DNA of 38,058 bases, taken from Elusimicrobiaceae bacterium. GTDB taxonomy: Bacteria; Elusimicrobiota; Elusimicrobia; Elusimicrobiales; Elusimicrobiaceae. Made by a program: the position numbers and the translations under genes. The stretch covers positions 1-38,058 of the forward strand of contig JAFXVA010000003.1 in NCBI GenBank assembly GCA_017534965.1, read 5' to 3'. Positions 7,822 to 16,788 of the stretch are shown here, in pieces. The notes beneath the pieces were generated by a model. It ran no database searches, was not told the DNA's origin, and saw only the letters and a program-made list of their open reading frames with translations. Numbering within the stretch: position 1 is the first letter of the stretch; each line of letters starts with the position of its first letter.

Positions 7822-8916
7822 TTAATAGGTTAGTTCCTTAATTAATTCTTTAATGTCAAAATCTTTATTGTAGGCGTGTTGGTTTTCAAGTAAAGTGGCG
7901 TTTTGGCTGTTTGGGCCCCATAAAACTATATTTTCTTGGTCTAGACCTGAATAAATACAAATTTGTTTTTTACCAAAGCCGCTTGCGGCGTGAACTATGT
8001 AAGTATCTGGGGTAATTAAGATATCAGCTTGTTTTAAAAGTGCGATATTTAGCAAAATTCCGCCTTTTAAGGCGTTTTCTTGCGAAACTAGGGTAAGATT
8101 ACCCGGTAAATCCTTATACCCCCTAAAAAAAGTTTTTAAATTGTCGGCCGGACCGATAATTAAGATTTTATATTTTGGCAGTAATTTGGCAATTTCTAAG
8201 GCCTGTTTTGCGCTAAAACATCTTCTATGAGAGGCGGCAAAAGGGTTAAAAATAATAAGTTTTTCCCCCGCCTGTAATTTTAAAGATTTTACCACTTTTT
8301 CGGCAAGTTTAACACTTTCTTTTGGAAGTGGCAAAATATAGCGGTAGTCAAAAGCATAATCTCTAGGCAAAATTTTAAGCCCTTCAAAAACGGCTTTATG
8401 TAATTTGGTAATATGCGCGCTGTTCCATTTGTAAGGTTTGTTGATATTATAAAGTTTATAGGTATCTCTGTTAAAACCAAAGATAAAACGCGCTTTTATA
8501 AGACGCAGTAAGAAAATGCTTTGGGCGGTGGGTTCTTTATCTATATCAATAACAAGGTCGTATTTTTCTTTTCTCAAAGCAAGGCCTAATTTTAAAATTT
8601 TAAACCAGCTTCTTTTATAAAGATAAATTTGGTCCACGTCTTTATTGTTTTCAATGATAGTTTTTGCGCTTGGTCCTGTTATAACCGCTAAATGTATTTT
8701 GGGATAAAGGGCTTTTAAATTGTGAAAGGAAATGGTGGAAACTATCATATCGCCAAGTTTATTATCATAGCGTAAAAAAAGCACTTTTTTAATGCTTTTA
8801 AATGCACTTGGCGAATAATGTGCCGGTGATTTTCTATCAAATAAAAACTTGGCAAGTTGTGCTTTTTTTGCACGCAACCATAAATTTTTATTTCTGTTCC
8901 ACTCTCTAAAAGTCAT
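7822..8916 (-). CDS. Glycosyltransferase family 9 protein (LPS heptosyltransferase-like)
   Basis: The protein is 364 residues, the usual length for ADP-heptose:LPS heptosyltransferases. Diagnostic segments are VLFLRYDNKLGDMIVSTISF (about 46-65), the glycine-Asp acceptor-site strand of GT9; the Rossmann-like strand YDLVIDIDKEPT; the mid-domain FNPFAASHRRCFS; and the C-terminal ADILITPDTYIVHAASGFGK, which in the family binds the nucleotide sugar. It probably adds heptose or a related sugar to the LPS core. It converges on the plus-strand cluster (9 bases between stops). It has no Shine-Dalgarno; an extended -10 (TGC plus TATAAT, 8923-8931) lies 6 bases before the ATG. Confidence 0.88.
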   Translation of the reverse strand: MTFREWNRNKNLWLRAKKAQLAKFLFDRKSPAHYSPSAFKSIKKVLFLRYDNKLGDMIVSTISFHNLKALYPKIHLAVITGPSAKTIIENNKDVDQIYLYKRSWFKILKLGLALRKEKYDLVIDIDKEPTAQSIFLLRLIKARFIFGFNRDTYKLYNINKPYKWNSAHITKLHKAVFEGLKILPRDYAFDYRYILPLPKESVKLAEKVVKSLKLQAGEKLIIFNPFAASHRRCFSAKQALEIAKLLPKYKILIIGPADNLKTFFRGYKDLPGNLTLVSQENALKGGILLNIALLKQADILITPDTYIVHAASGFGKKQICIYSGLDQENIVLWGPNSQNATLLENQHAYNKDFDIKELIKELTY

Positions 8917-8936: not shown

Positions 8937-10283
8937 CTAAAATGCCTTGCTTATGCCGAACTCCCAGCGGGTGCGTTCAAATTCATAACTTTCAATATTG
9001 GAAGTTCTTTTATTGTAAATAAAATTAACTCTGGGTGTTAAATCATAAACACTTAAAAGATTACTGCTTAAAGAAACATAAACACCACGTATATGTTCTG
9101 TGCGTTTTACTTCAACTAAAGTTTCGTGATTTATATAAGTTCCTTTTTTTAAAAAATAATTGCCTGAAAGGCTTGGCTCAACATAAAGATTAAAACCAAG
9201 CGGCAGCTGCACTCCGACACCGAAAGAATAATTTTGATGGAAATAAGAATTATAATCTAATTTAGCATCTGTTGTGGAAAACCCTGCCCCCAAAACAAAA
9301 TAAGTATAGTTGTTTAAAAAGAAGAATAAGCGGGCATTTATTGCATATTCTTTGGCATTAAAAACTTTATAAAGAGATTGAATATAATGTATATCGGAAG
9401 CTTCAATTCTGCCGTGAAGGGAAAAGCGACGGCTTAAATCGCGCGAGGCCTCGGCAAAAATACCTGCTGTGTGGGAATAGCGGTGTTCCTCGTTAAATTG
9501 TTCTTTATAAGAGGCCCCAAGCCAATATTCCCCCCTTTGTGCGGTGTATCTTGGCCCGCTTGCAAGCCCAAGCGACCAAAAGGAAAAGCGTTCGTCATCA
9601 TAGTGTATCGCATCAATGCTAAGGCGGTTTTTTATGCTCCATTTATCATTAAATTTGTAGGTATAGTCAAATAACCCAGAACCTTGAAAGCCGACATCAC
9701 TTTGTATAGATTCTAACTCACGGCAAAAGGGCAAACCGGAAATATATACGCACTCAATTTGTTTACCGCTCACACCGTTAATATTAGTATCAGGGGCAAT
9801 ACCAACTTGAATTTGAGCGTTCCAAACTTTTTCTTGTCTTATTTGATAAAGTAGCCAATTACCTTGCAGGCGCATTTCATCGGGCAAATCATCTTGGGAA
9901 AGAGCAAGTTGCATATTAAAACGGGCGGTTTCATATTCTTTTTTTAAAAAATAAACCCAAGCTAAATTAAAACGCGCCATTGTTAAAGAAGGGTTATAAT
10001 TTAAAAGTTGGCGGTATAAACGAACGGCTCTGTTGTAATCTTCGTTTTTAGTTGCAATAGAAGCAAGTATAAAAGTTATTTCTTCTTTCTCCTGTCTTGT
10101 TTGAGCTTGGTCGTAGGCTTGTTCTAAAATTTGTGTTGCTAAAGGGTAGTTGCCTTGTTCTATTAGATTTTGTATATCGTCAATAGTGGGTTCGGCTTGA
10201 GGCAAAATATAAGCCAAATCTTGCGCAAAAGTTATATTAAAAATAAAAATAAAGGATAGAAAAAATAAAAATTTTTTTAGCAT
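8937..10283 (-). CDS. Slam-like outer-membrane protein (surface lipoprotein assembly modulator family, DUF560)
   Basis: Slam proteins translocate TbpB/fHbp/hemophilin-type proteins across the outer membrane. This 448-residue product has the full layout: a Sec signal peptide cleaved near TFA/Q at 20-21; a TPR-rich periplasmic domain (about 35-150, helices such as NYPLATQILEQAYDQA and YNRAVRLYRQLLNYNPS); the junction motif KVWNAQIQVGIAPDTNIN (152-169), matching the W...APDxNIN signature at the start of the DUF560 barrel; then alternating amphipathic strands to a terminal Phe (ISKAF), the BAM recognition residue. The final strands VNFIYNKRTSNIESYEFERT also fit the family. Two Cys (178, 187) lie in an early barrel loop. 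The two upstream genes encode TbpB-like proteins, its expected clients. A bidirectional terminator separates it from them, so it is expressed from its own weak promoter or by read-through. Confidence 0.82.
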   Translation of the reverse strand: MLKKFLFFLSFIFIFNITFAQDLAYILPQAEPTIDDIQNLIEQGNYPLATQILEQAYDQAQTRQEKEEITFILASIATKNEDYNRAVRLYRQLLNYNPSLTMARFNLAWVYFLKKEYETARFNMQLALSQDDLPDEMRLQGNWLLYQIRQEKVWNAQIQVGIAPDTNINGVSGKQIECVYISGLPFCRELESIQSDVGFQGSGLFDYTYKFNDKWSIKNRLSIDAIHYDDERFSFWSLGLASGPRYTAQRGEYWLGASYKEQFNEEHRYSHTAGIFAEASRDLSRRFSLHGRIEASDIHYIQSLYKVFNAKEYAINARLFFFLNNYTYFVLGAGFSTTDAKLDYNSYFHQNYSFGVGVQLPLGFNLYVEPSLSGNYFLKKGTYINHETLVEVKRTEHIRGVYVSLSSNLLSVYDLTPRVNFIYNKRTSNIESYEFERTRWEFGISKAF

Positions 10284-10288
10284 ACTAA

Positions 10289-10294
10289 ATTATA
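10289..10294 (-). promoter_or_regulatory. -10 box directly before the Slam-like gene
   Basis: TATAAT on the minus strand ends 5 bases before the ATG at 10283. No Shine-Dalgarno exists in the short space after the terminator hairpin. Either the gene makes a leaderless mRNA or it depends on read-through. Confidence 0.35.
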
Positions 10295-10333
10295 TAAAAA
10301 AAAGCCCTTGTTTACTTATACAAGGGCTTTTTT
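10295..10333. terminator. Bidirectional intrinsic terminator
   Basis: A GCCCTTG / CAAGGGC stem extended by flanking A/T pairs, with a 10-base loop and T-runs in both directions. It ends the minus-strand gene at 10348. Confidence 0.85.
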
Positions 10334-10347
10334 AAGTGTTTTATTGT

Positions 10348-11568
10348 TTAATTGCTTTTTTTAGCACCAAAACCTATATGAGTATTGATGAATAAATTGC
10401 CACCTGCTAGGGTTGTATTATGACCGGTGAAAGCAATTTCTCCCACAACCTCATCTTTAGAAATACTACTGCCTTCTACTACAACACCGCTTCCATATGT
10501 ATCCATCCCAAGATGATTAACGACATTGTTTTCAATAGGCAAACGACTTGGCGAACCACTTAACACAATATTTGTTATTAAGAAGTTAGGGCTATTATTC
10601 GTTATTTCGTTATTTATACTTCCGGTAAGCGCAATATCATACCAAGCATAAGAATTTCCGAATTTAGTATTAGTAATATTACCGCTTAATTGTTTGGTAT
10701 TAAAGTTAAGGGATAAGGTTATATCACCATATAAGTCATTAGTTGCGCTGTTTCCGCCGCAATTGTTATTTAAGTAGTTTATGGCGCCGATTGCCTTGCC
10801 AGTAAAGGCAGCTATATTAGAAGTAGCGGCGTATCTGTTATATTTGCTTGCCATAAGCTGTTTGGAAGTGTCAAACATATAGAATTGTCCGGAACTATAT
10901 CTTCTATATCGTTTAGATTCGCTGCTTGATTCCATGCTAGAGTTGGTATAACGAGACAACCAAGTATAATAACCAAAATCACTATTTTCTAAACCAAGCA
11001 AGCGGCCACCTAAAGCGAGATTGGAAGTCAGCGTCCAAGTGACATTTTCATTGGTTAGGGTAAGCATACCTGTTTTTTGTTTCAAAGAAGTTGTTGTTAA
11101 GGTACCCAAAAATTGCGTCTTAGTATTTCCGGCATAAAAATCTGCCACATTAGAAGATGTCATAGTGCCTAAGTCGAAGGTCGTTTTGACAGCGGGACTT
11201 GGTTTGGTAAAGCCCCAAACATATTTACGAGATCCTGCCGTTTGAAAAATATCATTTGTCTGATAGGAATTATTAGCAACCTTGATTGGTGCATAAACAG
11301 ATAGTTCCAAGGAAATATTTTTACCGCTTTTGGTCATGTTAACCTGTGAGCCTTCGGTTATTGTTTGTATGTTATTTGAGGAAAGGGTTTTTAATAGTTT
11401 GCCTGACTGAATAGAACCACCGGTATTACTTCCGCCGCCACCAGTGCCGGGATTAACAGGCGCAACAACGGCAGCCCCGCCGGAAGATCCGCCGCTTCCG
11501 CCTGAGGCAAGCATAACGCCCCCACCTATACCGAGGGCAGCTAAAATAGAAACGATTATAGCAGTCAT
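10348..11568 (-). CDS. TbpB-like Slam client, surface-exposed or secreted (substrate A)
   Basis: Start chosen at 11568: a perfect AGGAGG lies 4 bases before this ATG, while upstream in-frame ATGs have none. The 406-residue protein opens with a hydrophobic, uncharged leader (MTAIIVSILAALGIGGGVML) followed by a Gly/Ser-rich linker with one SNTGG. The C-terminal half matches the TbpB-type handle-barrel pattern: FGYYTW, FYMFDTSKQ, AAFTGKAIGAI, then GDITLSLNFNTKQLSGNITN, and the end VGEIAFTGH...IGFGAKK, similar to the GxFxGxxxxxFGAKK end of transferrin-binding-protein-like and hemophilin-like proteins. There is no lipobox Cys, so a released rather than lipid-anchored protein is possible. It lies next to a Slam-like gene, its likely exporter. 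The ligand (haem, metal or host protein) is unknown. Confidence 0.72.
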   Translation of the reverse strand: MTAIIVSILAALGIGGGVMLASGGSGGSSGGAAVVAPVNPGTGGGGSNTGGSIQSGKLLKTLSSNNIQTITEGSQVNMTKSGKNISLELSVYAPIKVANNSYQTNDIFQTAGSRKYVWGFTKPSPAVKTTFDLGTMTSSNVADFYAGNTKTQFLGTLTTTSLKQKTGMLTLTNENVTWTLTSNLALGGRLLGLENSDFGYYTWLSRYTNSSMESSSESKRYRRYSSGQFYMFDTSKQLMASKYNRYAATSNIAAFTGKAIGAINYLNNNCGGNSATNDLYGDITLSLNFNTKQLSGNITNTKFGNSYAWYDIALTGSINNEITNNSPNFLITNIVLSGSPSRLPIENNVVNHLGMDTYGSGVVVEGSSISKDEVVGEIAFTGHNTTLAGGNLFINTHIGFGAKKSN

Positions 11569-11599
11569 AAAACCTCCTATGAAACATAAAGTATTAAAC

Positions 11600-11629
11600 A
11601 TAGTATGCAGGTAAAACAAAAAAAATCAA
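11600..11629 (-). promoter_or_regulatory. Promoter of substrate A
   Basis: Minus-strand TTGATT (11624-11629), 18-bp spacer, TACTAT (11600-11605), giving a 5' UTR of about 25 bases carrying AGGAGG. The same arrangement precedes substrate B. Confidence 0.6.
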
Positions 11630-11640
11630 GAGTATTACAT

Positions 11641-11671
11641 AAAAAGGCAGTCTTTAAAAGACTGCCTTTAT
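11641..11671. terminator. Intrinsic terminator between the two substrate genes
   Basis: A 10-bp stem AAAGGCAGTC / GACTGCCTTT (11643-11652 and 11660-11669) with T-runs on both sides ends the gene at 11704 and gives the two paralogues separate transcripts. Confidence 0.8.
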
Positions 11672-11703
11672 ACTTTATGTTTCTGACTACTATTTAGTCA
11701 TAT

Positions 11704-13131
11704 TTATTGTTTCTTTGCACCGAAGGAAATAAACACATTGTTAAAACTTGTGGATCCTGTTGGTTCTGCCGTATGACCGGTAAAAGCAAGTTGTCCAACC
11801 ATTTCATCTTTAGAAACAGAACTGCCTTTAACTATCACAGCATCACCGAAATTGCTTCCGTTATTATTCATCGGAGTTAAATTGTTTCCGTCATATCTGT
11901 GTAAAGTATAGGGAAGGGAAGCTGTCTGATTTCTGTCATAATCAACATTGGTAAATATTATGTTATATGGTTCAGATGAAGTAACATCTTTAATAGTTCC
12001 TGTTAGAGTGAAACTATACCAAGCTGAACCGCCCACAACAACATTACTTATATTGCCACTTAAATTTTTATTAGCCAAATTAAGATTTAATGTAATATCA
12101 CCTGTAAGATTTGCAACATTATTGACACCGCAGGTAGTTCTAAGGAAATGCCTAACGCCTATAACGTTACCGCTGAAGGTGGCATTATTGCCATACCTAG
12201 AAGTATAATTACTGCCGGTAAACTGTCTAGAGGTGTTAAACATATAGAACTGCTGGGCTCCATATCTTGTGTAGCGTTTTTGCAAACTTGATGAAGTTAT
12301 TGCCCAAGTGCCACTTGAATATCCGTGTTCAATCATATAGTTTGTGAAAACTGATTTCCAGCTATAATAACCAAACTCACTATACTGCAAGCCAAGTTTT
12401 CTAGCACCTAAAGCAAAGTTTGTTAGATTAAAAGTCCAAGTGAGATCAGTTAAATTTGTTGAAACAGTATTTTCCATAATACCGCCGGCGCCTGTAACAA
12501 AACTTGCATGAAGCGTTGGAATATTTTTTGTCTGTTGAGCCGGAAGATTATAGAAATCAGCATAGTTTGTAGAACTTTTAATAGTGCCAAGATTTATTGT
12601 CTTTTTCATTATAGGATTATCAGCAGTATAACCTGAAACAAATCTATAATTCCCATCAACGGTATAAGCACGTTCTTCGTTTGTTTTATAAGTTGTTCCG
12701 CTGACTAAAATAGGCGCAAAAGGTGCCATGCCGATACTAAGGTTTTTACCGCTTAAAGTGGTATTGCCATGCGCAGCTTTACCCACAACACTAACACCGC
12801 TTAAAGAACCGCTTGCAAGCAAAGCACCGACATTGGAAGAACCGCTTGTTCCCCCTGTATTACCGCCGGTAGTGCCACCTGTATTAGAACCACCTGTGTT
12901 AGAGCCACCCGTATTGCTTCCACCTGTATTAGAACCACCGGTATTACTTCCGCCAGTGTTGCTACCCCCTGTGTTAGAACCGCCGGTATTACTTCCCCCG
13001 CCACCAGTGCCTGGGTTAACAGGCGCAACAACGGCAGCCCCGCCGGAAGATCCGCCGCTTCCGCCTGAGGCAAGCATAACACCCCCACCTATACCGAGGG
13101 CAGCTAAAATAGAAATGATTATAGCAGTCAT
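11704..13131 (-). CDS. TbpB-like Slam client with SNTGG repeat linker (substrate B)
   Basis: Start chosen at 13131 because AGGAGG lies 4 bases upstream. The 475-residue product has the same leader as substrate A (MTAIIISILAALGIGGGVML, one Val to Ile change), then a long Gly-rich stalk containing eight SNTGG repeats, then a body homologous to A: FGYYSW, QFYMFNTSRQF, ATFSGNVIGV, GDITLNLNLANKNLSGNIS, SFTLTGTIKD, and the end VGQLAFTGH...ISFGAKK. These are TbpB beta-barrel features. The stalk would let the barrel stand off from the surface or membrane. There is no lipobox Cys; the single Cys after the leader (RTTCGV) aligns with the single Cys of A (NNNCGG). A role as a Slam-exported surface or secreted ligand-binding protein is inferred from fold and neighbours. 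Confidence 0.72.
   Translation of the reverse strand: MTAIIISILAALGIGGGVMLASGGSGGSSGGAAVVAPVNPGTGGGGSNTGGSNTGGSNTGGSNTGGSNTGGSNTGGSNTGGSNTGGTTGGNTGGTSGSSNVGALLASGSLSGVSVVGKAAHGNTTLSGKNLSIGMAPFAPILVSGTTYKTNEERAYTVDGNYRFVSGYTADNPIMKKTINLGTIKSSTNYADFYNLPAQQTKNIPTLHASFVTGAGGIMENTVSTNLTDLTWTFNLTNFALGARKLGLQYSEFGYYSWKSVFTNYMIEHGYSSGTWAITSSSLQKRYTRYGAQQFYMFNTSRQFTGSNYTSRYGNNATFSGNVIGVRHFLRTTCGVNNVANLTGDITLNLNLANKNLSGNISNVVVGGSAWYSFTLTGTIKDVTSSEPYNIIFTNVDYDRNQTASLPYTLHRYDGNNLTPMNNNGSNFGDAVIVKGSSVSKDEMVGQLAFTGHTAEPTGSTSFNNVFISFGAKKQ
12875..12994 (-). repeat. Eight tandem 15-bp units encoding SNTGG
   Basis: Eight in-frame copies of a 15-base unit (plus-strand form CCACCTGTATTAGAA with variants) inside substrate B. 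Units differ mainly at synonymous positions, so the peptide rather than the DNA is conserved. Substrate A has a single copy at the homologous place. Confidence 0.9.
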
Positions 13132-13162
13132 AAAACCTCCTATGAAACATAAAGTATTAAAC

Positions 13163-13192
13163 ATAGTATGCGTGTAAAGTTAAAAAAGTCAA
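13163..13192 (-). promoter_or_regulatory. Promoter of substrate B
   Basis: Minus-strand TTGACT (13187-13192), 18-bp spacer, TACTAT (13163-13168), the same geometry as before substrate A. Confidence 0.65.
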
Positions 13193-13253
13193 GTGATTTA
13201 ATATGTCTTTTTTTTATGTATTATAATACTTTTCACTCGTAAAATATAACCTA

Positions 13254-13315: not shown

Positions 13316-14614
13316 ATGAAAAGAAACATAGTTGTATTACTCGCTGTTTTATGCCTTTTATGCTTTGCTTTGTTTATACAAGCAGCACCAAACCAGGCAC
13401 AAAACAGCCAAAATGCAAACCCTATGATGATTTATGCGGAGGAAGATTGGGAAGATACTACAATTATTACTCCTGTTAAACATCACAGGCGTTTGCAAGA
13501 AAATAAACATGCCCATCACGAGATAGAAAATGATCCATTATCTTTTTACTCTGATTTCAAAGAGGCAGTAGAAAAGATGATAGGTCTTCAGTTCGGTATG
13601 GATATTTCTTTTACAGCGCAAAGACTTTCGCCTAACGGAAAACAAACTGCCATACAGGCAATTTATTATCCTTATGCCGAGTGGACTTTGTTTAAAGATA
13701 AAGGTTTTTGGGGAACGGCCGAGTTAAACTTTAGTTATAACCTTGTTCGTTATTGGGGGCAGGAAGCAAGTGTCTTGCAGGATAGAGGGCAAATTGTTAA
13801 CTCAATTAACGATTATCCAAGTAAAGATGATACTTTTTCGCAAATGTCCTTTACTCACACTTGGGGCGGAAGTTTAAGTTGGCTTTCTTGGACTGTCGGT
13901 CAGTTTCCGATTTATAATTTTGACGGAACAGATTATGACGCAAATGAGCAAACAGGTTTAATTAACTATGTTCTTGCGCAAAATGCAACTCAGGCATACC
14001 CTTCGGCAAGTCTTGGTGCTTATGTTCAAATTACACCGACGGAAAATCTGACTATTGCCGGTGGTTATCAAGATGCGCACAATGTCGGTGGAAATAAAAT
14101 TGAATTTGACACCGCCTTTGACGGCAAATATACCGGTTTTGCTTCTGTAAGTTATAACTTTAACTTGTTTGGCAAGCCGGGGCAATATAGCGCACTTGGT
14201 TATTATCAACCTTCTGTGGAAGAGCAAGCCGGATATACTTGGGGTTGGTCTTTAAACAGCCAACAGGGCTTGACGGAAAAATTAACTATCTTTAACAGAA
14301 TTAACGGCATCAGCGAGGAAATTTTGCCTATCAGCCGTTCTTATGTTCTAGGGCTTGCCTATAAAGATCCTTTAAACAGAAATCCTTTAGATGTTATAAC
14401 CTTTGCAACTGCTTATAATCAGTTAAGTGCGCAAGGGCTTGGCAATCCTGCTTACAACCGCGCTTATGAAATGGCTTTTGAAGTCCAATGGGTTTGGGGC
14501 TTTAGCCAATATTTGACAATTACGCCGGATATTCAGGTTTATCCTAATGCCGGTCTAAATTCCGAAGAGGAATTTGTGACGGTAGCTTCCTTAAGAACTA
14601 CCTTTATGTTTTAA
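13316..14614 (+). CDS. aaxA: OprB-family outer-membrane porin, AaxA-like (arginine uptake)
   Basis: The 432-residue protein begins with a signal peptide (MKRNIVVLLAVLCLLCFALF, cleavage near IQA/A) and a His/Arg-rich N-terminal linker. From about residue 85 it is a series of amphipathic strands with OprB landmarks: AEWTLFKDKGFWGTAELNFS, WTVGQFPIYNFDGTDYD, and the C-terminal YLTITPDIQVYPNAG, the porin family's TPDxQ signature, ending in TTFMF with the terminal Phe used by BAM. OprB porins pass sugars, but in Chlamydia an OprB homologue, AaxA, sits upstream of aaxB and aaxC and admits arginine. The same gene order follows here 18 bases downstream, so AaxA is the best call. Driven by a near-consensus promoter; AGGGGG ribosome site. 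Confidence 0.83.
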   Translation: MKRNIVVLLAVLCLLCFALFIQAAPNQAQNSQNANPMMIYAEEDWEDTTIITPVKHHRRLQENKHAHHEIENDPLSFYSDFKEAVEKMIGLQFGMDISFTAQRLSPNGKQTAIQAIYYPYAEWTLFKDKGFWGTAELNFSYNLVRYWGQEASVLQDRGQIVNSINDYPSKDDTFSQMSFTHTWGGSLSWLSWTVGQFPIYNFDGTDYDANEQTGLINYVLAQNATQAYPSASLGAYVQITPTENLTIAGGYQDAHNVGGNKIEFDTAFDGKYTGFASVSYNFNLFGKPGQYSALGYYQPSVEEQAGYTWGWSLNSQQGLTEKLTIFNRINGISEEILPISRSYVLGLAYKDPLNRNPLDVITFATAYNQLSAQGLGNPAYNRAYEMAFEVQWVWGFSQYLTITPDIQVYPNAGLNSEEEFVTVASLRTTFMF

Positions 14615-14632
14615 TTACGGGGGGTTTATTTT

Positions 14633-15244
14633 ATGAAAGAAAATTGTAATTGCAGTCAAGAATATGGAACAAGATATCCCACTTTATGTTTTTACAGCGG
14701 TGGTGCAGGGCAGGCCCAAGACGGCATTCCGCCACAACCTTTTGAAACTTTTTGCTATGATTCTGCCTTAAAACAAGCCAAAATAGAAAACTTTAATGTT
14801 ATACCCTACACTTCTGTTTTACCAAAGGAATTATACGGCAATATCGTGCCGGTAGATAAAGTTGTGGATAGTTTTCACCACGGGGCTGTTTTAGAAGTTA
14901 TCATGGCCGGCAACGGGGCAAATATTAACGAACATAAAGCTATTGCCACCGGCGTAGGTATATGCTGGGGTAAAGATAAAAAAGGCAATTTAATCGGCGG
15001 ATGGGCAGCAGAATATGTGGAATATTTCAGCACCCCGATTGACGATGAAATAGCCGAAGGCCACGCAAAAATGTGGCTTAATAAATCTTTAAAACACGAA
15101 CTTGAACTTAGAGGTGTCCAGAAGCATAGCGAGTTTCAATACTTCCATAACTATCTAAACTTAACTCAACCTTTTGGTTATTGTTTAACAGTTCTTGGTT
15201 TTTTAAACTTTAGAAACGCTGCCCCGGTAGTTATTAAAAAATAG
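14633..15244 (+). CDS. aaxB: Pyruvoyl-dependent arginine decarboxylase
   Basis: This enzyme converts arginine to agmatine and CO2 using a pyruvoyl group formed by self-cleavage. The 203-residue proenzyme has the cleavage site in [15 protein letters not shown]: cutting between T60 and S61 gives a 60-residue beta chain and an alpha chain whose new N-terminus is the pyruvoyl. Downstream, [21 protein letters not shown] and the WAAEYVEYF segment with the conserved proton-donor Glu fit the PvlArgDC family, which has about 160-200 residues. The N-terminus carries two extra Cys (NCNCS). It lies between an AaxA-like porin and an AaxC-like antiporter, which is the chlamydial aax layout. The product would consume protons and deplete arginine. 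Start supported by a GGGGGG ribosome site 11 bases upstream. Confidence 0.93.
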
Positions 15245-15265
15245 TTTAAAAAAGAAAATCTTAAA

Positions 15266-15313
15266 TCCCCTCCCTTGATTTTTGGCTTTACCCAATATAT
15301 TAAGGGAGGGTTT
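15266..15313 (+). other. Hairpin between aaxB and aaxC (attenuator or processing site)
   Basis: CCCTCCCTT (15268-15276) pairs with AAGGGAGGG (15302-15310), a 9-bp stem around a 25-base loop, followed by TTTAAAAAAT. The T-run is short, so partial termination or mRNA processing that sets the aaxB to aaxC ratio is more likely than full termination. Confidence 0.55.
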
Positions 15314-15336
15314 AAAAAATAGAAAATAGGTGATTT

Positions 15337-16788
15337 ATGGGAAAAAATAACAATAATACAGCAGGTAAACTTGGGGTTATAGGTCTTGCCGCAATTGTTA
15401 TCAGTTCTATGATTGGGGGCGGTATTTTTTCGCTTCCACAAAATATGGCGCAAAGTGCCAGCACAGGGGCTGTTTTAATTGCGTGGATAATAACGGGTAT
15501 CGGCATGTATTTTATCGCTAATACCTTTAGTATTTTATCGGAAGTTAAACCGGATTTAACTTCTGGTATTTATATGTATGCCAGAGACGGCTTTGGCCCT
15601 TTTACCGGTTTTACTATCGGGTGGGGTTATTGGCTTTCGCAGATATTTGGCAATGTGGGTTATGCCGTTATAACAATGGATGCTTTAAATTACTTTTTCC
15701 CCCCTCATTTTGCGGGCGGGAATAATTTGCTTTCCATTATTTGCGGTTCACTCTTAATATGGTTTTTTAACTTTGTTGTTTTAAGAGGTGTCCGTCAAGC
15801 TGCCATAATGAATATTATGGGCACTATTGCAAAACTTGTGCCCCTTGCTATTTTTATAATTTTACTTATCTTTGCTTTCCATTTTGATAAGTTTTGTTAT
15901 AATTTCTGGGGTCATTTAAGAACGGATAATCTTGGTCCTTTCAGCGTGCAACTTAAAAGCACAATGCTTGTTACTTTGTGGGCTTTTATCGGTATAGAAG
16001 GTGCAGTTGTTTTATCTAACAGGGCAAAAAGTCAAAATGAAGTTAGCAAGGCAACCTTTCTTGGTTTTATTGGGTGTTTGGTAATTTATATTTTACTTTC
16101 ACTTTTGCCTTTTGGTTTTATGGACCAGCAGGAAATTGCTAAAATTGCAAACCCATCAACTGCGGGTATTTTGGAAAAGCTCGTCGGTCCGTGGGGCAGT
16201 TGGCTTATGAATATAGGGCTCTTGATTGCCGTTTTATTTAGCTGGCTTGCCTGGACTATGATAGCAGCCGAAATACCTTGCGCGGCGGCAAAAAACGGCA
16301 CTTTTCCTAAACAATTTGCTAAGGAAAATAAAAACGGCGCGCCCTGTTTTTCTTTGTGGGTAACAAGTGCTATTATGCAACTGGCAATTCTTATGGTTTA
16401 TTTTTCAAATAATGCTTGGAACACTATGCTAAGTATTACAGGCGTAATGGTTTTGCCTGCTTATATTGCAAGCACAATGTATCTTTGGAAACTCGCCAGA
16501 AACGGCGAATATGAAAAAGCAAAAACAAGCGGTAAAATGCTTGCCGTTATGACGGGTATTTTGGGCTCTGTTTATGGTTTTTGGCTGATATATGCAGCAG
16601 GTTTAAAATACTTGTTTATGGCGTTCATTTTCCTTGCTATCGGCATACCTGTTTTTATGATAGCAAGAAAGCAAACTGCCGACGGGCAGGCAATTTTTGC
16701 CAAAAAGGAAAAAGGTTCAGTTTTCTTTATTCTTTTAGTTTCCCTTTGTGCGATAATTGCTTTTGCCGGCGGTTATTTGAAATTGTAA
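15337..16788 (+). CDS. aaxC: Arginine/agmatine antiporter, APC superfamily
   Basis: The 483-residue protein is a 12-segment membrane transporter. TM1 has the unwound substrate-binding motif SSMIGGGIFSLP, the hallmark of basic amino-acid/polyamine antiporters in the APC superfamily, and TM6 has LWAFIGIEGAVVLSNRAK, another family signature. Length fits AaxC/ArcD-type antiporters. It would import arginine in exchange for the agmatine made by AaxB, completing a proton-consuming cycle with AaxA supplying arginine to the periplasm. An AGGTGA ribosome site supports the ATG at 15337. It ends the operon, followed by an intrinsic terminator. Without this context it could be an arginine/ornithine or lysine exchanger. 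Confidence 0.88.
   Translation: MGKNNNNTAGKLGVIGLAAIVISSMIGGGIFSLPQNMAQSASTGAVLIAWIITGIGMYFIANTFSILSEVKPDLTSGIYMYARDGFGPFTGFTIGWGYWLSQIFGNVGYAVITMDALNYFFPPHFAGGNNLLSIICGSLLIWFFNFVVLRGVRQAAIMNIMGTIAKLVPLAIFIILLIFAFHFDKFCYNFWGHLRTDNLGPFSVQLKSTMLVTLWAFIGIEGAVVLSNRAKSQNEVSKATFLGFIGCLVIYILLSLLPFGFMDQQEIAKIANPSTAGILEKLVGPWGSWLMNIGLLIAVLFSWLAWTMIAAEIPCAAAKNGTFPKQFAKENKNGAPCFSLWVTSAIMQLAILMVYFSNNAWNTMLSITGVMVLPAYIASTMYLWKLARNGEYEKAKTSGKMLAVMTGILGSVYGFWLIYAAGLKYLFMAFIFLAIGIPVFMIARKQTADGQAIFAKKEKGSVFFILLVSLCAIIAFAGGYLKL

Follow-up and report, generated by a model that had tools for sequence, protein, structure and literature searches.

A probable Slam-type secretion locus with tandem, lipobox-free clients in a bacterium of the Elusimicrobiaceae

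The DNA analyzed in this study (hereafter the window; 38,058 nucleotides) is one contig of a 1.32-Mb genome assembly, 96.5% complete, from a bacterium of the family Elusimicrobiaceae, phylum Elusimicrobiota; a preliminary description made from the sequence had already supposed a non-proteobacterial diderm. Its minus strand carries, in this order, genes for two paralogous proteins, termed client B (11704–13131) and client A (10348–11568), a putative Slam (SlipAM/DUF560) outer-membrane translocon (8937–10283) and a glycosyltransferase of family 9 (GT9; 7822–8916). Client A consists of 406 amino acid residues and ends in FGAKKSN, and client B of 475 residues, ending in FGAKKQ. Both also contain the stretch TGxIxLxLNxxxKxLSGNI or a close form of it, as had been described, and their bodies are about 43–46% identical. 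These genes are interpreted here as a Slam locus, i.e., a type XI secretion system (T11SS) locus, with a probability of roughly 0.85 on the basis of sequence comparisons and structure models.

The open reading frame (ORF) at 8937–10283 encodes 448 residues, with a signal peptide (MLKKFLFFLSFIFIFNITFAQ), a tetratricopeptide repeat (TPR) part and then GIAPDTNIN where the barrel begins, so that the signal peptide, TPR, barrel and APDTNIN junction reported earlier were all found. PF04575, the DUF560 barrel family, matched with 105.7 bits (cut-off 22, E = 4e-30) across model positions 1–288 of 288, and PF24575 (TPR_Slam) matched with 42.9 bits (cut-off 35.2, E = 7e-11). The AlphaFold2 (AF2) model of the protein (pLDDT 87.3) possesses a TPR-type helical domain (about residues 34–151) and 14 long barrel strands (154–447), and the Slam barrel is known to have 14 strands (PMC5449769). 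All proteins returned by a tblastn search against plasmids were annotated as surface lipoprotein assembly modifier, the best being SlipAM of Novosphingobium (92% coverage, 24.9% identity, E = 2e-26). By sequence and by model, this ORF is thus a Slam, as had been proposed, and it is the only one in its genome. The sole close relative in a contig scan was the Slam of a goat-abomasum metagenome-assembled genome named Elusimicrobiaceae (JAFQAA010000022), which was 86% identical.

Four parts can be distinguished in client A: a hydrophobic leader without cysteine (residues 1–22), a Gly-rich linker (23–53), a handle (about 54–180) and a C-terminal barrel (about 181–404). Client B has a similar leader and a longer (SNTGG)n linker, and is assigned to the same client family by its identity to client A and its match to the client profile (E = 3e-144, client B being itself a row of that profile). 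The ATG start of each client is preceded closely by GGAGG; longer client ORFs, listed mechanically, were rejected because their starts fall inside a duplicated promoter-like repeat. The AF2 model of client A, for which 15 sequences of the window and five further genomes were aligned, reached a pLDDT of 80.6 and a pTM of 0.80, with low confidence for residues 1–53. Similar to known Slam substrates, it shows a C-terminal eight-stranded barrel with a handle. In a VIA-align comparison of this model, hemophilin HphA structures came first (Z 15.4 to 8gm3 and 15.3 to 7re4), closely followed by fHbp, TbpB (14.1 to the C-lobe, 5kkx), HpuA and NHBA, entries within Z 1 of each other being regarded as tied. 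All 50 entries listed belonged to Slam-substrate families, with Z from 12.8 to 15.4. Structure prediction, suggested earlier as a check, therefore returned a TPR domain with a 14-strand barrel for Slam and a handle with a barrel for client A, and the adjacent paralogues are predicted to have the handle-plus-eight-strand-barrel fold of Slam substrates. The earlier label "TbpB-like" holds for this general fold but needs some qualification, since HphA ranks first, close to fHbp and the TbpB C-lobe, and PF01298 (TbpB_B_D) stayed below its cut-off.

Several points weigh against the Slam reading. With PF01298, client A scored 16.2 bits, under the cut-off of 26, and client B gave no match, so that of the two family searches proposed at the outset only that with PF04575 exceeded its cut-off in the window. 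In addition, an uncharged leader, as found on both clients, is an unusual Sec signal; the Slam tree described below has few rows, and its genomes with Cys-less clients all come from one family; and export of the clients is argued from homology. Though below the cut-off, the match of client A is the only PF01298 match in the whole 1.32-Mb genome. Moreover, a homologous client beside a sister Slam in genome G112 (the window's own genome being G000) passes PF01298 with 29.1 bits against 26, and the neighbor of a more distant Slam in G156, in the same order of bacteria, matched PF01298 with 43–48 bits and NHBA with E = 3e-7. Because of these two matches and the likeness of the client A model to Slam substrates, and with the Slam families matching the barrel gene, neither a different TPR-porin family devoid of Slam similarity nor non-barrel clients, the two outcomes that would have spoken against the preliminary description, was found. 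The G156 neighbor (L081, 977–3487) is 836 residues long; its NHBA/TbpB_B_D match lies at the C-terminus, and its long N-terminal part is different and starts with a leader of the signal peptidase I (SPI) type. Further searches with client sequences were uninformative: phmmer with client A alone found no match among solved structures, the matches of the client profile were due to low-complexity Gly linkers or otherwise to chance, a profile of lipobox clients found one meaningless leader match and a C-terminal peptide of a client found none.

Slam matches above 60 bits were identified in 18 of 341 Elusimicrobiota genomes. Two of these, G035 (L045, 8220–8672) and G095 (L080, 3204–3662), have only fragments, i.e., truncated barrels that lack both a client and an intact TPR part and are likely decaying copies. 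Weaker PF04575 matches elsewhere in the phylum (about 18–40 bits) were not counted as Slam, and the inspected ones had no adjoining client. Slam was present in 5 of the 18 genomes of the genus to which the window belongs. Among 90 Elusimicrobiaceae genomes, 15 had Slam and 10 matched the client profile, all 10 being Slam-positive (hypergeometric 5e-10, a value that ignores kinship), and most of these 10 either contributed rows to the profile or are very similar to its rows. G018, G023 and G025 are outside the profile rows yet were matched; their clients are not linked to Slam. Client arrays are in tandem and range from 2 to 6 copies. For instance, the genes of the sister species G006 are arranged in the same order, but the array there holds six clients rather than two, and a further client lies elsewhere. 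Two of these six are the counterparts of clients A and B (81 and 79% identity), and the rest are not represented in the window.

The clients fall into two leader classes. Cys-less clients adjoin the Slams of G000, G006, G013, G017, G088, G112 and G075 (7 of 7 genomes, from two genera). Clients with a lipobox (e.g., MKKLAILASGLALTACGGGG) adjoin the Slams of G015, G026, G100 and G320, and are unlinked to Slam in G018, G023 and G025. G267, whose client has no visible N-terminus, and G156, whose SPI-type client is outside both classes, were left out of this count. In the Slam tree, the Cys-less class lies entirely on one side of a branch with support of 100/99, and none of 500 label shuffles did as well, a count that is not a probability given that the tree rows are related; Slam clade and leader class also agreed in a tree with outgroups. 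With the other Elusimicrobiota Slams, readable client N-termini carry a lipobox except for the distant SPI-type client of G156. The Slam branch and the leader type of its clients thus go together.

The leaders of client A (MTAIIVSILAALGIGGGVMLAS; 11503–11568, minus strand) and client B (MTAIIISILAALGIGGGVMLAS; 13066–13131, minus strand) belong to the consensus MTxIIxSILxALGIGGGVMLAS, or a close form, of the Cys-less clients. Cysteine is absent from residues 1–30 of both, so there is no lipobox at the signal peptidase II site, and the first K/R is at residues 57 and 118 in the window clients. No leader has K/R before residue 41, the n-region is uncharged in 13 of 13 complete leaders, and none shows a clear A-X-A site. 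The missing lipobox cysteine and uncharged leader noted previously were thus borne out, and prove to be a conserved class across related genomes. As the leader has no Cys, lipidation of the clients at the usual place is impossible. As LspA and signal peptidase I are both present in the genome, absence of the lipobox does not reflect absence of the lipoprotein pathway. Over codons 2–17, the 13 leaders are on average 79% identical (74% between genomes), compared with 35% (32%) for the rest of the protein. Where leaders of different genomes share a residue, its codon differs in 65% of cases, which points to selection on the peptide, and not recent copying, as the explanation of the cross-genome likeness. 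A DNA pattern for the leader core [A/G]xGIGGG matched only clients A and B in their own genome, and elsewhere in the family the MTx leader was found only on Slam clients among those pattern matches that were translated. The leader is therefore not regarded as a motif that other proteins have as well, the remaining translated matches being chance frames or other proteins lacking an N-terminal MTx leader.

Copying has also occurred inside the window. A 226-nt stretch comprising the promoter-like region, Shine-Dalgarno sequence, leader and start of the linker (11412–11637 for client A, 12975–13200 for client B; both minus strand) is 93% identical in DNA between the two clients, and the bodies that follow are divergent. 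Clients might recombine through such cassettes. The linkers differ in length from client to client, and that of client B is encoded by tandem 15-nt repeats for SNTGG (12875–12996, minus strand). Terminator-like hairpins, identified by consensus match only, lie between client B and client A (11643–11669, 12 pairs) and between client A and Slam (10298–10333, 14 pairs).

If the locus functions as a Slam system, the clients would cross the inner membrane via Sec by means of the hydrophobic leader and would stay unfolded in the periplasm with a Skp-like chaperone. One OmpH/Skp-family match (35 bits) was found in the genome, and Skp has a role in Slam export (PMC9090332). The C-terminal barrel ending in FGAKK would then be recognized, and the client would pass the Slam barrel and fold outside. 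After export, the leader may be kept as a hydrophobic anchor or cut by a signal peptidase, with hemophilin-like release; release and another kind of anchoring had both been considered in the preliminary description.

That the client keeps its leader as a hydrophobic helix rich in Gly, which anchors it in place of a lipid, has a chance only a little below even. Such an anchor would sit either in the inner membrane, the Gly linker then serving as a tether, or, once Slam has transported the client, in the outer leaflet. The conserved hydrophobic GIGGG stretch and the long Gly/Ser linker behind it occupy the positions that lipobox and Gly linker have in lipidated clients, and the strong conservation of the leader at the peptide level also fits. 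However, helices seldom serve as anchors in the outer leaflet, and no precedent was found in the Slam literature searched. Almost as plausible, and likewise not the favored side of an even bet, is that the leader is a normal Sec signal, though an odd one, and is cleaved off, that the clients are soluble and secreted (TbpBBDsol type, like HphA and HrpC), and that leader likeness results only from ancestry and local copying. Slam cargo of the soluble type has been described (PMC8406197), client A comes closest in fold to HphA, signal peptidase I is present and the near-identical 5' cassettes demonstrate local copying. Cleavage is opposed by the uncharged n-regions and lack of a clear A-X-A site, and ancestry by the contrast between leaders and bodies across genomes despite the changed codons, as signal peptides normally conserve only a physico-chemical pattern. 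A BcsC/PelB-type TPR-porin for polysaccharide export with unrelated surface proteins as neighbors, to which the glycosyltransferase gene downstream and the presence of BcsC and PelBC among the top Foldseek matches of the Slam model might point, is very improbable and was rejected mainly because PF04575 and PF24575 both exceed their cut-offs, and also in view of the full-length similarity to annotated SlipAM and the Slam-client fold of the neighbors. That no Slam was among the 50 solved chains listed by Foldseek says nothing against membership.

Tentatively, we propose a switch in one Slam lineage, from lipidated clients to clients with a dedicated and conserved leader devoid of Cys. This leader might act as a novel signal for targeting or membrane anchoring, recognized by this Slam clade or else by a processing enzyme specific to it; we regard the proposal as possible rather than probable. 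As for their function, the clients probably bind ligands from the gut or the diet, either at the surface or as secreted proteins. A relay of heme or transferrin is disfavored because no TonB-dependent receptor (PF00593) was found in the 96.5% complete genome.

The GT9 gene, of the heptosyltransferase family, is directly downstream of Slam, and the same neighbor is found in G006 and G013. On the other side, client B is preceded by a divergently oriented, AaxA-like porin gene. It belongs to an aaxABC-like set for arginine uptake and decarboxylation (13316–16788, plus strand), which, as in Chlamydia, encodes an OprB-family porin, a pyruvoyl-dependent arginine decarboxylase and an amino-acid permease. 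The porin matched AaxA with 265.7 bits, under the equivalog cut-off of 600. The set keeps its gene order in G006 (L036, 16035–19415).

Slam/T11SS has been described as proteobacterial, with both soluble (hemophilin-type) and lipidated clients (PMC8406197; PMC12282271), and one founding survey searched Proteobacteria only (Hooda 2017; PMC5449769). A literature search, with most subscription journals outside its reach, found no paper joining Elusimicrobia with Slam. Similar to the systems with TbpBBDsol clients, such as HrpB-HrpC of Xenorhabdus and HphA of Acinetobacter, the Elusimicrobiaceae locus combines a predicted TPR and 14-strand barrel protein with an adjacent client of predicted hemophilin fold that has a single handle, a C-terminal barrel and no lipobox. 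Different from them, it is outside Proteobacteria, its genome yielded no TonB-dependent receptor, its clients form tandem arrays and the conserved, uncharged GIGGG leader replaces a standard signal peptide. With lipidated clients (TbpB, fHbp, HpuA and NHBA), the window clients share the fold, a C-terminal FGA ending and a Gly-rich linker after the leader, but they have no cysteine and another class of leader; lipobox versions occur in Elusimicrobiota too, beside sister Slams. The locus thus departs from known Slam systems in its phylum, in its client arrays and in having a class of leader that goes with a single Slam clade.

Strong Slam genes, together with clients of predicted Slam-substrate fold, widen the range of this system to another phylum. 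The main question raised is whether the clients are released or anchored by the leader, and the occurrence of lipobox and Cys-less clients within one family makes it testable whether Slam or the client N-terminus decides surface retention. If the proposed switch is true, clients with the Cys-free leader would be a third class beside lipidated and plain soluble cargo. Finally, the tandem arrays, with two clients here and six at the same locus in the sister species, suggest that binders at the surface or secreted from the cell are diversifying in these little-studied gut symbionts.
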